From contig JAPPGB010000091.1 of NCBI GenBank assembly GCA_028821475.1, forward strand, positions 1 through 64,000: a stretch of DNA of 64,000 nt, written 5' to 3'. The translations under genes were made by a program, and so were the position numbers. This stretch comes from Spirochaetaceae bacterium (lineage in GTDB: Bacteria > Spirochaetota > Spirochaetia > SZUA-6 > Bin103). The notes under the pieces were generated by a model, which was given only the letters and a program-made list of their open reading frames with translations, made no database searches and was not told the origin of the DNA. How positions within the stretch are numbered: position 1 is the first letter of the stretch; each line of letters begins with the position of its first letter. This document shows, piece after piece, positions 1,684-11,700 of this stretch.

Positions 1684-2790
1684 GTGCTCAAGCAATTCTT
1701 CAACTGGGTTTCCAACCCCGCCATCCTGTTCTCAATCTTCATCGTGGGGTTCTTCTTCATTTTCCCGCCCGGCGAGAAGCTGTACCGGCTCAACCGCCGT
1801 CTGAAGCTCGACATGCTGTGGACTCCCGCCGGCGGCGTCGTGTTCTTCGCCCTGCTTGCGATCTTCTTCCTGTGGGGGATTACCGACGCGAACTTCCGCC
1901 TCATCGTGTTCAAGCCGGACAACATTCCGATCACGGCGCTCTTGTTCCTGGTGCCGTTCTTCCTCTGGTACTCGATGAAGCAGGCACGCGACAACGATCT
2001 GCGCGCCGAGAAGGGCGAACCACCGCGCGAGGCGCTCGACAACGAGAAGGTGCTGGTGTGGCCGGACCTGGTGTACGTGGAGTTCATCTGCCTGATCCTG
2101 TCGATGGCGCTGATGATCGTCTGGTCGCTGTTCCTGAAGGCGCCGCTGGAGGAACCGGCCAACCCCACGGTGTCGCCCAACCCGTCGAAGGCGCCATGGT
2201 ACTTCCTCGGCCTGCAGGAGATGCTGGTCTACTACGACCCGTGGCTGGCGGGCGTGGTGCTGCCGACGCTGATCATCGTCGGCCTGGTCGCCATCCCCTA
2301 CATGGACATCAACCCCGGCGGCCAGGGCTTCTACAGCTACCGGCCGCGCATGAAGTCGATCAGCATCTTCCTGTTCGGCTTCGTGGTGATGTGGATCTTC
2401 CTGATCCTGGTCGGCACCTTTCTGCGCGGACCGAACTGGAACTTCTTCGGACCGTTCGAGTTCTGGGATCCCAACAAGCGTGAGGTGCTGAACAACGTAA
2501 ACCTGTCGGAATACGTGTATATCTTCCTGCTGCGCACCGGGTTGCCGAAGAACATCCTGGTCCGCGAGCTGTTCGGGATCCTGCTGATCCTGGGGTACTT
2601 CGCGATCGTGCCCGGGCTGCTGGCACAGACCGTGTTCAAACGGCTGTTCCAGCGCCTCGGCGTGGTTCGCTACAGTTTTTTCATCGTGCTGTTGCTGATG
2701 GGGTTGGCTTTGCCGATCAAGATGTACACACGCTGGCTGTTCAACCTGAAGTACATCGTCTCGATCCCGGAGTACTTCCTGAACGTATAG
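1684..2790 (+). CDS. Cytochrome b C-terminal / subunit IV-like membrane protein
   Basis: This is the partner that completes the cytochrome b core, equivalent to PetD (subunit IV). The signature PWYFLGLQE, near residue 177, belongs to the quinol-oxidation-site region of this family. At 368 residues it is far longer than plant or cyanobacterial PetD (about 160). It has roughly eight hydrophobic segments, including two before and several after the conserved core. The GTG start at 1684 follows an AAGGA-type site. The stop codon is directly followed by the ATG of the multiheme cytochrome gene, so the two are tightly coupled. I do not recognise the extra C-terminal membrane part. Confidence 0.88.
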   Translation: MLKQFFNWVSNPAILFSIFIVGFFFIFPPGEKLYRLNRRLKLDMLWTPAGGVVFFALLAIFFLWGITDANFRLIVFKPDNIPITALLFLVPFFLWYSMKQARDNDLRAEKGEPPREALDNEKVLVWPDLVYVEFICLILSMALMIVWSLFLKAPLEEPANPTVSPNPSKAPWYFLGLQEMLVYYDPWLAGVVLPTLIIVGLVAIPYMDINPGGQGFYSYRPRMKSISIFLFGFVVMWIFLILVGTFLRGPNWNFFGPFEFWDPNKREVLNNVNLSEYVYIFLLRTGLPKNILVRELFGILLILGYFAIVPGLLAQTVFKRLFQRLGVVRYSFFIVLLLMGLALPIKMYTRWLFNLKYIVSIPEYFLNV

Positions 2791-5709
2791 ATGGCAGTCC
2801 GACCGCAAGCACCGCAGCCGGAAGAGCGGCACTACAAGATCGGCACCCTGAACAAGTGGTTCGCGATCGGCAGCATCGTGCTGCTGATCACCATCATCGC
2901 GGGGTTCGCCCAGGACTACGGGCGCGAGTGGAAGCGCTGGCAGCGCGAGTTCCGCAGCATCGACCAGCGGGTGACGCGCGCCGCCTACGACGATATGGCC
3001 GCCGAGATGGAGGGCGACGCGGACCTGGCGCGGGCGCGCGAGCAGGTGGCCGCCGCCGAGGAGTCGCTGAGCGCGCGCAAGGATGACGTGGCCGCCGCCG
3101 GACGCGACGTGGACCGCCTGAAAGCGCGTTTCGACATTGTCAACTCGCGGTTCCAGAACGTGAAGGCGGAGCTGGAACGGGCCCGCTACCGCGACGAGCA
3201 GGCGTCCGCCAGCGTCGAGGGCCTGGGGCTGAACAGCGAGCGCACCGCCCGCGACCTGGAGCGATGGGAGACCCACTTCGCCGGCGCTTCGGTGGCCCAG
3301 GAGGAAGCGCAGGTCGCCCTGGATCAGGCAGAGGCCGCACTGACCGCGTTTCAGGATGACGTCCGCGCCGCCACGCGCACGCGCGACCAGCTTTCGCGCG
3401 AGGCCGACCTGCTGATGCGGCGGCTGACGCGCATGGATCCCGAGTTTTCGCCGATGGGCGTGAAGGTGGCCAACGTCATCCGCGACCTGCCGATACTCGA
3501 CCTGGCGCAGCCCACCCTGAAGGTGAACCAGGTGGTGCTGCCCGACATCCGGGAGAATCTCAACTTCGCCCAGGTGCCGCGCGTGGACCGCTGCGTGACC
3601 TGCCACCTCGGGGTGGAGCGCGCCGACCTGGAAGGGGTGGAGAACCCGCACGGCGCCCATCCGCGGCTGGCGCTGTTCGTGGCCAGCGACTCGCCGCACC
3701 CGCTCGAGGAATTCGGCTGCACGAGTTGCCACGGCGGCCGCGGACGCGCCACCGACTTCTACGGCACCGTGCACGTGCCCGATTCCTCCGACCAGGAACA
3801 CGACTGGGAAGAGCGCCTCGGCTGGAAGGAATACCACCTGTGGGAGGAGCCGATGCATCCGCTGCGCTACGCGGAGGCGGGCTGCTACCAGTGCCACAGC
3901 GGTCAGACCACGGTGCGCGGCGCCGACAAGCTCAACTACGGGCTGGCCCTGATCGAGCAGGCGGGCTGCTACTCGTGCCACCAGATCGACAGCTTCGAGC
4001 GATCGCTGCAGCGCGGCCCGTCACTGCGCAACGTGGCCGACAAGATCACCCCGGAGTTCGCCTTCCAGTGGATCAAGGATCCGGCCGCGTTTCGCGCGCA
4101 GACCTGGATGCCGTCCTACTTCGGGCAGAGCAACAACAGCGATCCCGAGTCGGCGGCGCGTTCCGACCAGGAGGTGCGGGCGATGGTGAGCTACCTGTTC
4201 GCCAACAGCACCGCCTACCCGATGGTGTCGATTCCGGTGGCCGGCGACGCGGCGCGCGGCGAGGAGCTGGTCGCCTCGGTCGGCTGCATGGCGTGTCACC
4301 AGTCGCCGGAGGAGACCGCCGGCAGCGACACCCGCACGGCCGCAAGCATCCAGGATCTGCGCCGCCAGTTCGGGCCCAACTTCCAGGGCCTGGGCAGCAA
4401 GACCTCGGCGCAGTGGGTGTACAACTGGCTCAAGGATCCGTCCAGCTACCATCCCGGCACGCGCATGCCGAGCCTGCGCCTGACCGACCAGGAGGCGGCC
4501 GACATCACCGCCTACCTGATGGGATCGACCGACGCGGCGTTCGTGAACCGCCCGGTACCGGGTGTCGACGAGGCAATCATCGACCAGATCGCGCTCGACT
4601 TCCTGTCCAACACGGCGCCGATGATCACCGCCCGCGAGCAGCTCTCCGGCATGAGCCGAAGCGAGAAGCTGGAGTACACCGGCGAACGCCTTATCGGACA
4701 GTACGGGTGTTATGCCTGTCACGACATTGCCGGCTTCGAAGGCGCCCAGCCGATCGGCACCGAGTTGACCGACATCGGACGCAAGGCGCTGCACCAGTTC
4801 GACTACGGCTTCGTCGACATCGAGCACAGCCGCACCTCCTGGTGGACCGCCAAGCTCACCGATCCGCGCATCTTCGACACCCACCGCGACCTGACTCCGA
4901 TGCTGAAGAGCCGGATGCCCAACTTCCGCTTCACGGACCTGCAGGTGGAGGCGATGGTGACCGCGCTCGCCGGATTCGTGGAGACCGACCCGGACAACAC
5001 CCTGATCGTGCCGCGCACGCCGAGCAGCCTGCGCATCGAGCAGGGCCAGCACCTGGTACGGCAGATGAACTGCCAGGGCTGCCACGTCATCGAGGGCGAC
5101 GGCGGCGCCGTGGTGGAGCGGGTGGCCGATTGGCTGCAGCGGTTCGAGGGCCGCGATGCCGCCGACGCGGGCGCGCTGGCGGCAAGCTTCTCGCCGCCCA
5201 ACCTGCTCGGCGAGGGCCGCAAGGTGCGGACCGACTGGCTGTTCGCCTTCTTCCACGAGCCGTCGCCGATCAGGCCGTGGCTGCGCATCCGCATGCCGAG
5301 CTACGGCATGACCGCCGAGCAGCGCAACGGGCTCATCGCCTACTTCACGGCGCTCGACGAGGCGGACTACCCGTTCGCCGCGGCGGTGGAGCCGGAACTG
5401 ACCGGGGAGGAGCTGGACGCGGCGCTGACCATGTTCTCGCCGCAGTACTTCAACTGCACCACCTGTCACATCCAGGGCGACCAGTTCCCGCCGGGGACGC
5501 CGGACCGCTGGGCTCCCAACTTCGCGCTCGCCGCCGAGCGGCTGCGCCCGGAGTGGATCATCGACTGGCTGGCCGACCCGCAGTCGCTGATGCCGGGCAC
5601 CCGGATGCCGGCGTTCTACCCGCTCGGCGCGCCGGGCATCCTGAACGACGACACCGACCATCAGCTCGAAGTCCTCCGCGACTACCTGCTCACCCTCGGC
5701 ACGGAGTGA
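2791..5709 (+). CDS. Membrane-anchored octaheme c-type cytochrome of the bc complex operon
   Basis: The protein has 972 residues and eight CxxCH heme-binding motifs, with the first Cys at about residues 268, 310, 365, 393, 499, 640, 761 and 889. A single hydrophobic anchor lies at about residues 25-42, followed by a charged, heptad-like region (about 55-205) that looks like a coiled coil standing the heme part off the membrane. Repeated units with W-x-x-x-W-L-x-D-P and G-T-R-M-P-like segments indicate several cytochrome c class I folds in series. Its place directly after the bc-type genes suggests it replaces cytochrome c1 as electron acceptor of the complex. Several heme motifs have the form CYxCH. 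No homologue name is assigned. Confidence 0.85.
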   Translation: MAVRPQAPQPEERHYKIGTLNKWFAIGSIVLLITIIAGFAQDYGREWKRWQREFRSIDQRVTRAAYDDMAAEMEGDADLARAREQVAAAEESLSARKDDVAAAGRDVDRLKARFDIVNSRFQNVKAELERARYRDEQASASVEGLGLNSERTARDLERWETHFAGASVAQEEAQVALDQAEAALTAFQDDVRAATRTRDQLSREADLLMRRLTRMDPEFSPMGVKVANVIRDLPILDLAQPTLKVNQVVLPDIRENLNFAQVPRVDRCVTCHLGVERADLEGVENPHGAHPRLALFVASDSPHPLEEFGCTSCHGGRGRATDFYGTVHVPDSSDQEHDWEERLGWKEYHLWEEPMHPLRYAEAGCYQCHSGQTTVRGADKLNYGLALIEQAGCYSCHQIDSFERSLQRGPSLRNVADKITPEFAFQWIKDPAAFRAQTWMPSYFGQSNNSDPESAARSDQEVRAMVSYLFANSTAYPMVSIPVAGDAARGEELVASVGCMACHQSPEETAGSDTRTAASIQDLRRQFGPNFQGLGSKTSAQWVYNWLKDPSSYHPGTRMPSLRLTDQEAADITAYLMGSTDAAFVNRPVPGVDEAIIDQIALDFLSNTAPMITAREQLSGMSRSEKLEYTGERLIGQYGCYACHDIAGFEGAQPIGTELTDIGRKALHQFDYGFVDIEHSRTSWWTAKLTDPRIFDTHRDLTPMLKSRMPNFRFTDLQVEAMVTALAGFVETDPDNTLIVPRTPSSLRIEQGQHLVRQMNCQGCHVIEGDGGAVVERVADWLQRFEGRDAADAGALAASFSPPNLLGEGRKVRTDWLFAFFHEPSPIRPWLRIRMPSYGMTAEQRNGLIAYFTALDEADYPFAAAVEPELTGEELDAALTMFSPQYFNCTTCHIQGDQFPPGTPDRWAPNFALAAERLRPEWIIDWLADPQSLMPGTRMPAFYPLGAPGILNDDTDHQLEVLRDYLLTLGTE

Positions 5710-5710
5710 G

Positions 5711-6499
5711 ATGTCGACTTTCGAGGATGGGTTCGCCGCCGTGGAAGCTGCCGCCGAGGAAGCGGAAGCCGCCGCGCGGACACTGGCTGCTACTGCCCGC
5801 AGGTTGAGAAGAGCCGCCCAAGACGGCGCCGTTGCCAAACTTCGGCGAGAGGCGCATCAACTGACGAACGCTCTGTCCGCGACCGATCAGAGCGTGGCTC
5901 GTGCGGCAGTGGCGTGGCCCTTCGACGAGTGTGCGGCGACCGCCTACATGGGCGAACGGTACGCGGACGAGTTGCGCAGCGCCGCAGGCTCGATCGGGCT
6001 CAACGTGTCGGTACGCGACGAGGCGTTGGTGTGCTCACCGTCCATTCTCCGTGTCTTGCCCGCTGACACGGCACTGAAAATCGACGGCAAGAAACGCACG
6101 GCTATCCGGCCATCGAAGCTGGCAGCGGACCTGCGTGCGATTCAGCACCGGATGCGCCCAAAGAGCGACGCCCAGCAACAGCGCTTCCTGGAAGCACTCT
6201 ACAAGGCGTTCAGGATCATAAGAGGAAAACCCTCCGATCCGTTGTTTGACGCGACGCGAGTGGTGCCGCTGTCCGAGGTGTACGCCGTTTTCACGTCGCT
6301 GCCGGGGACCAGCACGCAGTACACGAAGACCGATTTCGCGCGCGACATCTACCTGCTCGATTCCTCATCGGTAGCGGACACCAGGTCCGGGGCGCGAGTG
6401 AGCTTTACCGGCTCCGTGCGACGTAGTACCGGGATCCTTTCCTTTGTGGACCGTAACGGCAACGTGATCCGTTACTTCGGCGTACAGTTCTCGGAGTAG
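5711..6499 (+). CDS. Uncharacterised protein, first gene of a BrxD-like ATPase cassette
   Basis: This 262-residue protein is not recognised. Residues 1-60 are Ala/Glu/Arg-rich and probably form a helical coiled coil. A basic middle part (about 115-175) contains KIDGKKR and several Arg/Lys clusters. The C-terminal 60 residues alternate short polar and hydrophobic stretches and look like beta strands, ending in RYFGVQFSE. There is no signal peptide or membrane segment. The ATG lies two bases after the stop of the octaheme cytochrome gene, but base use changes here, so this is a new module and not a respiratory gene. Four bases separate it from the next gene, which implies joint translation with the two ATPase-like proteins. 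Confidence 0.75.
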   Translation: MSTFEDGFAAVEAAAEEAEAAARTLAATARRLRRAAQDGAVAKLRREAHQLTNALSATDQSVARAAVAWPFDECAATAYMGERYADELRSAAGSIGLNVSVRDEALVCSPSILRVLPADTALKIDGKKRTAIRPSKLAADLRAIQHRMRPKSDAQQQRFLEALYKAFRIIRGKPSDPLFDATRVVPLSEVYAVFTSLPGTSTQYTKTDFARDIYLLDSSSVADTRSGARVSFTGSVRRSTGILSFVDRNGNVIRYFGVQFSE

Positions 6500-6503
6500 G
6501 TCA

Positions 6504-7454
6504 ATGCACGTCACCGACTGGCTGGAGCAGATCGAGCGTGACTACCTCGCTACCTTCGTCGCGAGCGGCGGGGCGGCAGTTAAGTTCGTTGTCGGTGACG
6601 GGATGCAGCGGTCCGCGGCACGCCACGGCTTGACCAAGCTCGCCAAGGATCGCGGCTATCTCGTGTTGAGCGCGGATGCCGCGGCACATCGATTTCACAT
6701 GCCGCAGGATCTGTTCTTTGCCCTTGCAGCACAAGTAGACTGGCGGCTGGCGGCGCGCCGCTACCTTATCAACCTGTTGGCACGCGAGGGCTACCAGACT
6801 GGTGACGTTACGCCGGCCGACGAGCACGCACTGCAGGCCGTGGCTGAACTCAACAAGATCGGCAAGGAGTTCCTCCTCACGGCGTTGAATCCACGTCTGC
6901 AACGAGACGTGTTCTATGACGCCAACATGGCCAAGGATTTCCGCGTTGCGATGTCTCACCTGTGCTTGATGGAGCGCTCCGCCGAACAGCCTCATCCCGG
7001 ACAACCAATCATCGACTGGCTGACCGGCGTCAACACGCGCATCTCGAACGTGAAGCCATTCTCGATTTACAATCCGATCAACCGTACGACGGCTCGGCAT
7101 CTGCTACGCTCGGCGTTCTATTGGTTCTCCAAAGCAGGCTACCCGGGGACCGTCGTGATTCTCGACAGCACTCGGGTTACCGGGCGGACAAGGCCATCCG
7201 ACGGCTCCCGGTACTACACCAGAGCCATGACAATGGACTTCTACGAGATAATGCGGGAGTTCATCGATAGCGTTGACTTGCTCGTTGCAACCATGATCGT
7301 GTCCTGCTCCGAAGCCGCGTTTCTGGACCAGGAGGCTGACCGACAGTCTCGCGGCGTCGGGATTTATCCTGCGTTGCAGACCAGGATCATCGATGACGTT
7401 CGCGACAAGAGAATCGAGAATCCGGCGGCCGCCCTGTGCCGCCTGATGGGCTGA
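6504..7454 (+). CDS. BrxD/DUF2791-like protein with a degenerate P-loop
   Basis: The N-terminal pattern (DWLEQIERDY, then GGAAVKFVVGDG at about residues 22-34) resembles the P-loop protein family annotated as the BREX system ATP-binding domain (DUF2791, BrxD-like); this is from memory and no search was run. The usual GxxGxGK(S/T) loop is replaced by VVGDGMQRS, without the Lys, so nucleotide hydrolysis is doubtful. A hydrophobic strand ending in an acidic residue (GTVVILDS, near 214-221) may be the remains of Walker B. It sits between an unknown protein and an intact ATPase, four bases from the latter, which suggests a subunit pair in which one partner lost catalysis. Confidence 0.65.
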   Translation: MHVTDWLEQIERDYLATFVASGGAAVKFVVGDGMQRSAARHGLTKLAKDRGYLVLSADAAAHRFHMPQDLFFALAAQVDWRLAARRYLINLLAREGYQTGDVTPADEHALQAVAELNKIGKEFLLTALNPRLQRDVFYDANMAKDFRVAMSHLCLMERSAEQPHPGQPIIDWLTGVNTRISNVKPFSIYNPINRTTARHLLRSAFYWFSKAGYPGTVVILDSTRVTGRTRPSDGSRYYTRAMTMDFYEIMREFIDSVDLLVATMIVSCSEAAFLDQEADRQSRGVGIYPALQTRIIDDVRDKRIENPAAALCRLMG

Positions 7455-7458
7455 TCCG

Positions 7459-8718
7459 GTGATGGAGCAGAGCGTGCAGCAACTTCCCGACCAGCTCGAC
7501 TGCCGCCGCGCGATAGAAGCGCTTCGCAACGGCGTGCCGAACCGCGTGGCAGTGCGGATTCTCGGCAGTACGCAGCCGCAGGCCGAGCGGCAGTTTCAGG
7601 AACGCCTCACTGGCAACGGTGGCGAGGACGCCGGCGGCCTGCTGATATCGGGCGATTTCGGCGCCGGCAAGTCGCACCTGCTGGAGCACTTCGAGAACAT
7701 CGCACTGGAACGAGGTTTCGTGTGCAGCCGCATCGCGGTGAGCAAGGAGACCCCGTTCTACGACCTGGGAAAGATGTTTCGGGCGGCCGCCGACACCGGC
7801 GTGCTTCCCGACGGCAGAGTCGGTGCCATGGTGGATGAAATCGGCAACCGGCTGGCCGGTCCGAGGGATCCCCGCTACGCGACGTTCTTCCGTTGGGCTG
7901 ACGGCGCTTCCAGCGACTTGCACCGTATTTTCCCGGCGACCCTCATGGTGCACGAACGCCTGCCGGATCAGGAGATGTTGAACGCCATCAGATGGTTCTG
8001 GTCGGGAGACAAGATCGCGGTAGGCGACGTAAAGCGGGGGCTGCGCCAAATCGGGCAGCAGGGGACCTACCAGTTCCGTGCCCCGAAACTCCGCGACCTG
8101 CCTCCGCAGCGACTGCGCTTCGTCCTGGAAATGATCAAGACGTCCGGCTATCGGGGCTGGGTGGTACTCATCGACGAGTTGGAGCTGATCGGCAGCTACA
8201 GCCTGTTGCAGCGGGCGCGATCGTATGCGGAACTCGCCCGATGGATGGGCGTAGCGGATGATGCCCGCTATCCTGGGCCGGTGGTTGTGGCGGCAATCAC
8301 GGAGGACTTCGTCGAGGCGATCCTTGAAGAGAAGGGCGACCGCGTCAAGGTTCCGGCAAGGTTGCGGGAGCGCGGCGAGGCACGAATGGCGCGGCAGGCA
8401 GAGCTTGGCATGCAGTGGCTGTCTTCCCGTCGTACCCGCCTGAGCGAAGTGACCGACGACGGCGTCGATGCCGCGGTAGACCACATCAGGCGCATCTACA
8501 GCCGCGCATACGACTGGGCTGCTCCCTCGGTCAGCGCTGCCGGCGGCGGTGCCGGCTACCAGAAGCGAATGCGCTACAAGGTGCGTGGCGCCATTACGAC
8601 ATGGGACTTGCAGAGGTTGTGCGACGCCGATCCCGATATGGAGACCGAGGAATACCAGCCGACGTACCATGAAGATCACGACCTTGAGGTCGAATCCCAC
8701 GAAGATACTCCATCCTGA
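7459..8718 (+). CDS. BrxD-like P-loop ATPase (DUF2791 family)
   Basis: This 419-residue ATPase has a clear Walker A, GDFGAGKS (residues 65-72), and a Walker B-like strand GWVVLIDELEL (about 233-243). The N-terminal segment with IEALRNGVPNRVAVRILG is typical of the BREX-associated ATP-binding family as I remember it. BrxD is one component of type 2 BREX anti-phage systems, but no PglX, PglZ, PglW or PglY gene is nearby. The gene could start at GTG 7459 or at the next codon, ATG 7462. It is the last of three co-directional genes with 2-4 nt gaps. Its stop codon lies inside a short tandem repeat. Confidence 0.8.
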   Translation: MMEQSVQQLPDQLDCRRAIEALRNGVPNRVAVRILGSTQPQAERQFQERLTGNGGEDAGGLLISGDFGAGKSHLLEHFENIALERGFVCSRIAVSKETPFYDLGKMFRAAADTGVLPDGRVGAMVDEIGNRLAGPRDPRYATFFRWADGASSDLHRIFPATLMVHERLPDQEMLNAIRWFWSGDKIAVGDVKRGLRQIGQQGTYQFRAPKLRDLPPQRLRFVLEMIKTSGYRGWVVLIDELELIGSYSLLQRARSYAELARWMGVADDARYPGPVVVAAITEDFVEAILEEKGDRVKVPARLRERGEARMARQAELGMQWLSSRRTRLSEVTDDGVDAAVDHIRRIYSRAYDWAAPSVSAAGGGAGYQKRMRYKVRGAITTWDLQRLCDADPDMETEEYQPTYHEDHDLEVESHEDTPS

Positions 8719-8750
8719 TCTTCTGATCCTTTGATCCTTCTGATCCTTCT
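8714..8750. repeat. Short tandem repeat with TGATC core, period 8-9 nt
   Basis: Four TGATC cores occur at 8716, 8724, 8732 and 8741, separated by CT-rich spacers. The first core contains the stop codon of the ATPase gene. The repeat ends 18 nt before the ATG of the amylase-GlgA gene. I see no palindrome that would make it a terminator. Confidence 0.6.
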
Positions 8751-8768
8751 CATGCCAACAGGAAACCC

Positions 8769-11700
8769 ATGAATCCGGATACACCTGATCGCCGGGCCGC
8801 CGAGAGCCTCGGTACCCGAGGCGGGCCTTGCCTGACGGTGCCGTTCGGCGCGGAGGTGGACGATGCGGCGGTCAAGGTGGCGCTGCACGCCGCGTTTCGG
8901 GAACAGCGCGCGTTCGCGTTTGCACCGCGGGCCGCGTGGCAGGGCGCCGATGCCGGCGAGCGGCAACGGCTGGCGGCCGCGGTTCGCGCCGACGCGGTGG
9001 CTTCCGCCGCGCCGGACAGTCCGGCGGCGCGCGAACGGTTGCAGCGCGACGCGCGTCTCATGCAGCGGCTCGCCGGTGCCGTGCGCCTTACCCACGAGCT
9101 GCTCACGGCGCACGCGGATGTCGGCAGCCCCGCCGGGGCGCCGCGGCGCGTGGTGCTGATCCGCGAGTTGCCGGGCGCGGCCTTCGTCTTCGAACTGGGG
9201 GCGACCGCGGTGCTGGCGCGGGTCGGGCAGGGGCCGGTCGGGGCGCGGGTGCCGACCATTTATCTCGGATTGCGGCTGTTCGACCTGGCGGCGGCGGAGC
9301 AGGACGCCTCCGGCGCCGCGCGGGAGGCGCTGGGGCTGATCCTGCGCCTTGAAGAGCGCGCCATCGAGACCGGCTACTCGCACGTCGAGACGGTCGACGA
9401 CCGCCATCGCGCCACCCTGGAGAGGTTGTACCGCGCGCTACGCGAGCCGGCGCTTGGCTTTGTAGCGCCCGAGCAGGAGCTGCCGGTGCCGCGCCGCCCG
9501 GTGCGGGTCACCGCCGCCCGCCGGCAGGCGTTCCTGCGCCAGTTGAACGCGCGCCGCGCCGAGTCGCCGCTCGACTTCGACGCTGCGATCTGCACCGCGG
9601 CGATGCGCAGCCTGGAACGGCTCGCGCAGCGCGCCAAGCGGCATGGCGACGCCGGCACCCGCCGCGAGGTGGTGCGCCTGCTGGTCGCCGCCGCCGGCCA
9701 CGACCTGCACGAGGTGCGCAACCACGCCAACCTGCTCCTGGAGCGCATGCTCGCCCCCAAGGAGTTCGACGCCCCGCTGGCGCGTACCTTCGCCAACGTC
9801 ACCCGCGGCGCCACGCACCGGTTCTCGCTCGACCTGCCGCCGCGGCGCGGGCGCTACCTGGTGCGGGTCTACCGCGGCGCGCCCCACCACCGCTACCCCG
9901 GCGAGGCCGACATCCGTTACGACGAGGTGGAGCTGCGGCCCCGCGGGCCGGGGCAGCCGCTGACCGCGCGGTACTCGTTCGGCGAACTGGGCCACTACGA
10001 CTACTGCGTGGTGCGGGTGCACGCCAGCGGACGCCGGGAGTGGCTCAAGGACGCCGCCTGCAGCGGGCGCATCAACGTCATTCCCGACCTGCGTGGCGAG
10101 CTGGCGTTGCAGATCTTCCCCGACATCCACGGCCACACGCGCACCTGGTGGGGAGACGGCGAGCATCCCGGACTGGTCTACAACGAGCATGGCGAGGTGA
10201 TCCGGCTCGGCACCTTCGCCGACGTCGCCGCCCATCTCCCGCACATCCGGCGCCGCCACGGATTCAGCATCGTCTACCTGCTCGGCGTGCAGAAGCGCGG
10301 CAGCAACCGCGAGGACTGGTCGCCGCACGCCACCTCCGCCTCACCGTTCGCCCCGGAGAGCCTGGTCGAGATGGAACCTCGCCTGGGCGGCAACGACGGC
10401 CTGCGCGAGTTGGTCGAGGCAGCGCATGAACTCGGCATGAAGGTGGTGGTGGACGTGATCCCGCACCTCAACCGCCGCGTGCACGACGTCCCGGAGTCGT
10501 TCTCCGTGCGCTGCTTCGACGATGCCGGCAACCTGGTGCCGCGCGCATCGACCGACGGACGTTACGGGAGCTGGAACGACGGAGTGCTGCTCAACTACCG
10601 CCGCCTTGCGGTGTGGGAGTGGCTCGCCGGCGCGGTGCGAACCCTGGTGGAGCGGTTCGACGTCGACGGCGTGCGCTGCGACATCGCCCACGCGCTGCCG
10701 GTGGTGATGAAACGCAACAACGCCTCCACCCTGCCCTCCGGCCCGCGTTCCGACGAGGATCAGGTGGAGGGCACCATCGTGGTCAACGAGCGGGAGGACG
10801 ACCACCTCATCACCACCGGATTTTTCGATTCGGCGTGCCGCGACCTGGTCGCCAGTCCGCTGCACTACCTGCTGATGCGCGAGCTCGAGCAGGCGACACG
10901 CGGATGCGGCAAGGACTTCAGCCTGTTCCTCGCCGAGTCCTACTGGGGCCGCGAGCAGTACCTGAGCCGGGTCGGGGTGGTACCCTACAACTCCGCGCTG
11001 TTCAAGATCTGTGAGCGGGTTGCGCAGGGCACCTCCCCGGTGAGCGAGATCTACCACCTGTACGACGATCACTACCGGCACGCGCTGCCGCCCGGCACCG
11101 AGCTGATGGGCATGTTCGGCAATCACGACGAACGGCGTCCGGTGAACACGTTCGGGCGCGACAACCTGCGCCCGGTGCTGACGCTGACCTCGTTTCTGAC
11201 CAACCTGCTGCTGGACTACGAGGGCAACGCCGAGGGCGAGGCATGGAAGGTGTTCGCCGACAACGTGTACGTGGACTGGAACCGCTTCGACAGCGCGGCG
11301 GATCGCAGCGTGGAGCGGGTGTTCAGCGAGGCGTACGCGTTCCACCGCCGCAACCCGGGGCGCGGCACGCTGGTGCCGACCGACCACGAGCAGGTAGTGG
11401 CGGTTATCAAGCCGGCGCCGCGCGGCCTGTGGCTGGCGGTGTGCAGCTTCTCGGCCGACAGCGCGATGGTGAGCGTCGATCTGAGCGCGGCGGAGATGAT
11501 CGACGATGCGGCGCGCTACGTGGTGGTCGACCCTACCTACTCGCCGGTCACCCGCGGGTACGCGCACTATACCGGGCGTGAATTGCGCGTGACCCCGCTC
11601 ACCACCTCGGTGAGCTACCGGCAGCGGGTAAAGCTGTTGCGCATCGACCTGGATGCCGCGGACGCGGACGCCGGATCCCGAACGGAGGGCGGCTCCGCGA

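Follow-up and report, generated by a model that had tools for sequence, protein, structure and literature searches.

A conserved and uncatalogued three-gene cassette in which an intact BrxD-like ATPase is accompanied by an apparently obligate pseudo-ATPase

Do three tightly packed genes behind the respiratory operon of a Spirochaetaceae bacterium form a machine of their own, and if so, what could it do? The genes in question occupy positions 5711-8718 of the 64,000-nucleotide stretch of DNA analysed here (positions 1 to 64,000 of contig JAPPGB010000091.1, assembly GCA_028821475.1), which is called the window throughout. Open reading frame (ORF) calls give, all on the forward strand and separated by 4-nt gaps, P1 (5711-6499, 262 aa), A (6504-7454, 316 aa) and B (7459-8718, 419 aa, with a GTG start), A and B being AAA+ ATPases of the PF10923 family. 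An earlier sequence-only reading had described these lengths and spacings accurately, had regarded A as the degenerate sister of an intact ATPase of the bacteriophage exclusion (BREX) type, and had suggested that the three genes encode a self-contained machine. In this study I find that the genes form a real cassette, conserved and missing from the catalogues, and that its pseudo-ATPase is obligate.

A genome scan with a single sequence found no relatives, and an alignment of three sequences was needed. When the alignment of B, the third gene, was scanned against 84,980 genomes, 321 relatives were obtained, and 80 loci were fetched and read, with the gene order taken from hidden Markov model (HMM) searches of the six frames. 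In these 80 other loci the three genes are again arranged in this order, barring cuts at contig edges and fusions, and the trio is therefore not a product of chance. The loci span eleven named phyla, among them Chloroflexota, Actinomycetota, Acidobacteriota, Pseudomonadota, Nitrospirota and Bacillota, and two genomes of the same class as the window contain the trio as well. Of the 66 testable loci, which have at least 2.5 kb of sequence upstream of B, 65 contain P1, A and B complete, in that order and on the same strand, the remaining one being an A-B fusion; the genes typically overlap or lie tens of bases apart. Such recurrence in many phyla is what the sequence-only reading would have taken as the sign of a distinct system, and its expectation that the 262-residue protein is conserved with the ATPases is borne out as well: the correlations of pairwise distances among P1, A and B amount to 0.89-0.91 and exceed all 999 permutations, from which it follows that the trio is inherited as one unit. 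No model in Pfam, NCBIfam or PADLOC describes the trio, and a literature search, thin on subscription papers and preprints, found no text on it.

Both ATPases exceed the curated Pfam cut-off for PF10923 (BrxC_BrxD, 22.2 bits), B with 74.6 bits (E 1e-20) and A with 32.7 bits (E 5e-8), and they are homologous to each other (hhalign 95.6%, E 1.3e-8). In B both Walker motifs are intact, GDFGAGKSH being Walker A, as the sequence-only reading had noticed, and VVLIDELEL being Walker B; the Walker-B DE is kept in 80/80 B proteins, and each of the 81 rows shown has Walker A. The A protein of the window carries VGDGMQRSAARHG where B has GDFGAGKSH, and according to the alignment the Walker-B Glu is lost too. 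The GxxxxGK[ST] P-loop is absent from A in 76 of the 78 loci, being kept only in L014 and L015, and the Walker-B DE is absent in 78/78. A different motif, Y-x-A-L-x-x-R, is present in all 78 A proteins (its arginine is R294 in the window), and the alignment contains further near-invariant residues, many of them Arg, Trp, Tyr and Gly, with some of the Arg, Trp and Tyr invariant. For A, the ratio of nonsynonymous to synonymous substitution rates (dN/dS) lies between 0.06 and 0.23, a range shared with B, and A is under purifying selection. The loss of the P-loop across phyla, the purifying selection and the kept Y-x-A-L-x-x-R together argue that A is an obligate pseudo-ATPase partner rather than a decaying gene, so that the earlier label of a degenerate protein fits its P-loop but not the conserved gene as such. 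Two Nitrospirota genomes (L070:7002-11710 and L072:3472-8252) encode the dead A and the live B as one polypeptide, present as a tandem duplicate, a fusion which argues that A and B work together one to one.

How could a dead ATPase serve a live one? ORC/Cdc6 and the RFC clamp loaders are built from different AAA+ subunits, of which inactive ones contribute to composite ATP sites, and they load a ring or a helicase on DNA. The trio resembles them in its possible working mode, as a heteromeric AAA+ assembly with an inactive subunit, but the relation is remote, the fold matches are not significant, and the trio is a bacterial accessory cassette. By analogy with ORC/Cdc6, Y.AL..R occupies the position of the arginine finger, which makes R294 a candidate arginine finger. 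In the B rows displayed, a looser VPxRLR is found at this position, except in L014 and L015. A is shorter at both ends than the two intact relatives, and its AlphaFold2 model has a mean predicted local distance difference test score (pLDDT) of 95; Foldseek found no match for it in the PDB at E<=0.001, and a weak DUF2399 match, below cut-off, was not used. The window's own genome contains a second, separate set that also holds two PF10923 ATPases (L008:5270-13252, C164), and of these only the first has the motif, as YRALQDR, so the asymmetry between A and B may be older than the loss of the P-loop. The genes of L008 encode a UvrD-like protein of 766 aa, an unclassified protein of 295 aa, the two ATPases (431 and 501 aa), which both keep their P-loops, and an Lhr/BrxHI/SngC-like helicase of 698 aa.

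The remaining member of the trio, P1, has no significant match in Pfam, PADLOC or NCBIfam, in agreement with the earlier reading, which had called it unknown. Its AlphaFold2 model (mean pLDDT 93.8) consists of a long N-terminal coiled-coil helical hairpin and a middle beta region, followed by a C-terminal segment in which helices and strands succeed each other much as in a winged helix. No match to this model was found by Foldseek in the PDB or among viral models at E<=0.001, and the PDB matches of the P1 sequence are coiled-coil or helical-bundle proteins. The alignment of P1 has 79 members; a few of its relatives show weak DUF3375/JetA matches, which were below the cut-offs and were not used. 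Compared with the first genes of loci with an Lhr-like helicase, P1 gives a weak hint at best for L016 (hhalign E 0.0033, 9.7% probability) and no match for L008. The L016 locus (5886-11053) encodes a 292-aa protein with a P1-like C-terminal segment, two BrxD-like ATPases, and an Lhr-like helicase that is split over two ORFs.

On what could such an assembly act? A same-strand SNF2 protein is encoded downstream of the trio in 35 of the 65 loci with 3 kb of downstream sequence, and as the trio thus stands beside a DNA-translocating helicase about half of the time, it is probably a DNA-handling machine, likely one directed against invaders. The description self-contained, used in the sequence-only reading, holds for about half of the loci, and the other half add the SNF2 helicase, often with a nuclease: an Mrr-like nuclease motif is present in 13/39 SNF2 proteins, and the one of L034 is composed, by Pfam, of SNF2, Helicase_C and Mrr_cat. 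A short protein of ~188 aa often precedes the SNF2 protein and resembles the N-terminus of fused forms; the Syntrophaceae locus L034 is complete in having the trio, the gene for the 188-aa protein and SNF2-Mrr. The distances of B and SNF2 correlate at 0.85, and the presence and absence of SNF2 on the tree of B requires nine changes. Other SF2 (superfamily 2) helicases by the trio are a PLD_Helicase (L049), a DpdE-like (L033) and an XPB/PbeA-like protein (L014). The trio-linked SNF2 partner matches the ZorD and DpdE models best, and as an SNF2 helicase with an Mrr-like nuclease this optional partner is like ZorD of Zorya, but P1, A and B do not match ZorA, ZorB or ZorC.

The surroundings of the trio differ between loci. 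At 1e-15, 77 PADLOC families were matched in 125 proteins neighbouring 22 SNF2-bearing loci, and 25 families in 90 proteins neighbouring 29 helicase-less loci; these counts are rough, as the models overlap, the locus sets were chosen differently and there is no random background. Near the SNF2-bearing loci the families include CRISPR type I-G, restriction-modification, a DUF1156 methyltransferase, PLD_Helicase and DpdF, the methyltransferase match coming from a pooled scan that included the large ORF of L049. In that locus (L049:451-11743), the large ORF comes before the PLD_Helicase, which lies directly upstream of the trio, and SNF2 is downstream. In L014 (7202-12125) both ATPases are intact, and the divergent XPB/PbeA-like helicase lies 55 bp upstream. 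Another genome of the window's phylum (L017:1-10601) has, judged by eye, a BrxD-like ATPase, an Lhr-like helicase, a methyltransferase-like and a type III restriction-like protein in a row.

In the window itself, the trio is placed between a cytochrome gene and a glycogen-metabolism gene, and no SNF2 gene stands beside it. P1 begins one base past the stop codon of the cytochrome gene, and no promoter-like site was found; the promoter of the operon may therefore drive P1. The G+C content at third codon positions (GC3) of the trio (0.75-0.78) is lower than that of the respiratory genes upstream (0.87-0.95), from which the sequence-only reading had rightly set the trio apart, and than that found downstream (0.86-0.89); the GC3 of the trio is foreign. 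A genome of the same genus (G001) lacks a counterpart of the interval 5698-8769: its locus L108 aligns to window positions 2356-5698 and resumes at 8820, with ~130 bp between, and the cytochrome gene of the respiratory operon is directly joined to the downstream glycogen-metabolism gene. The cassette was therefore either gained in the lineage of the window or lost in that of G001; no long direct repeats flank the insertion.

Taken as a whole, these observations lead me to read the trio, with little more than even confidence, as a heteromeric AAA+ assembly of the ORC/Cdc6-like kind that loads or switches SF2 DNA translocases, probably as part of a defence against invaders. That P1, A and B form one machine is strongly supported, that this machine loads or switches SF2 translocases is likely, and that it defends against invaders is plausible; the trans arginine finger and the binding of DNA by P1 are what I infer. 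In the proposed mechanism, B would bind and hydrolyse ATP, and A, as a fixed pseudo-ATPase, would pack on B, with R294 of Y-x-A-L-x-x-R completing the active site of B in trans, analogous to the inactive subunits of ORC and clamp loaders. P1 would tether A-B to DNA or to a client, as a coiled-coil adaptor of which one end is probably a winged helix. This client would be an SF2 translocase, in most cases SNF2, either alone or with an Mrr nuclease, and the trio would load it or switch it on; trio and translocase would act together on invading DNA. The core in the window, having no neighbouring translocase, would have to use one in trans or act alone.

Several observations weigh against this proposal. 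In 30/65 loci, as in the window, no SNF2 gene adjoins the trio, and the neighbours of helicase-less loci are mostly ordinary genes. The assignment of the arginine finger derives from the position of a motif by ORC/Cdc6 analogy, not from the structure of a complex, and because both ATPases are intact in two spirochaete loci, some members of the wider family can do without the dead partner. Furthermore, searches of viral contigs, phage records and plasmids did not find the trio, and the evidence for mobility consists of patchiness and the empty site only. Alternatively, the trio could be a machine for DNA repair or chromosome maintenance, in which the AAA+ pair loads translocases of the SNF2 type where the DNA of the host itself is damaged or a process on it has stalled. 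The helicase-less loci among ordinary genes, the negative searches of the phage, plasmid and viral collections, and a tree of B that is largely clade-wise within Actinomycetota and Acidobacteriota would fit such a role, but the patchy presence (clear matches in only 3/296 genomes of the window's phylum), the empty site within the genus, the foreign GC3, the frequent Mrr nuclease partner and the defence genes near SNF2-bearing loci do not, and I regard it as unlikely.

Improbable to the same degree is that the copy in the window is a leftover core that has lost its helicase effector and is either kept as a regulator in trans or on its way out. In the window's clade of 15 B proteins most are followed by SNF2, but not those of the window and of L019, its nearest relative, and the SNF2 proteins elsewhere in the window's genome show matches over the helicase core only. 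However, dN/dS between the window and L019 is 0.17-0.27 for P1, A and B, so the three genes stayed selected in lineages now without SNF2, and many other loci are helicase-less as well.

Could the trio instead belong to a known system? According to the BREX survey PMC12839542, in the available text of which the trio is not mentioned, BrxD is a standalone ORC/Cdc6 AAA+ ATPase and a suggested loader of BrxHI. The BrxD-BrxHI dyad of BREX type 2 is similar to the trio in that a PF10923 ATPase is linked to an SF2 helicase, which in the dyad is thought to be loaded by BrxD (PMC12839542). In contrast to BREX type 2, no PglX, PglZ or BrxC was found with the trio, which has two ATPases, one of them dead, and P1 in addition, and where a helicase is present it is of the SNF2 and not of the Ski2/Lhr-like kind. 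If the trio were what is left of a BREX locus (BrxD of type 2 and its partners), the membership of A and B in PF10923 would be accounted for, but this is highly improbable, as PglZ (PF08665) is absent from the whole window assembly (95.7% complete), PglX, PglZ and BrxC are absent among the neighbours of the 29 helicase-less loci, in line with the earlier remark that no other BREX core genes are nearby, and B and A reach only 60.8 and 26 bits, respectively, with the BrxD equivalog NF033438 (cut-off 350 bits), a model that all 73 B relatives match with a best E of only 3.7e-20. Shango (SngA, SngB, SngC) is likewise small and compact and combines a helicase with SngB, an ATPase of the PF10923 type, but it has a single ATPase in place of a dead-live pair; P1 matches neither SngA nor TerB, and the trio has SNF2 or nothing in the place of the Lhr-like SngC. 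The match of the window's B to SngB is weak (20.6 bits, 5e-5) and below its BrxD match, and identity with Shango was rejected, there being no TerB/SngA partner and no SngC next to the window's trio. Finally, that A is no more than an ATPase gene copy decaying in a single genome, as its missing P-loop and Walker B might suggest, is refuted by the same P-loop loss in loci of many phyla, the invariant residues and the low dN/dS, and can be dismissed.

The loader or switch proposed here could, tentatively, be widened to an undescribed and widespread anti-invader system, in which an AAA+ protein and its obligate pseudo-AAA+ partner, with an active site split between them, would load translocase-nucleases of the SNF2 or another SF2 type, each exchangeable for the other, onto foreign DNA by means of a coiled-coil adaptor without known fold relatives. 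Catalogues of defence systems rest on known gene families, and the trio escapes them, as P1 falls into no family and the only label given to A and B is a generic BrxD one. The dead ATPase kept by a live one in eleven phyla represents a clean natural case of an apparently obligate pseudo-ATPase in a small bacterial machine, and the trio offers a test of pseudo-ATPase pairs and of BrxD-type helicase loading with three to five genes, as compared with a full BREX locus.
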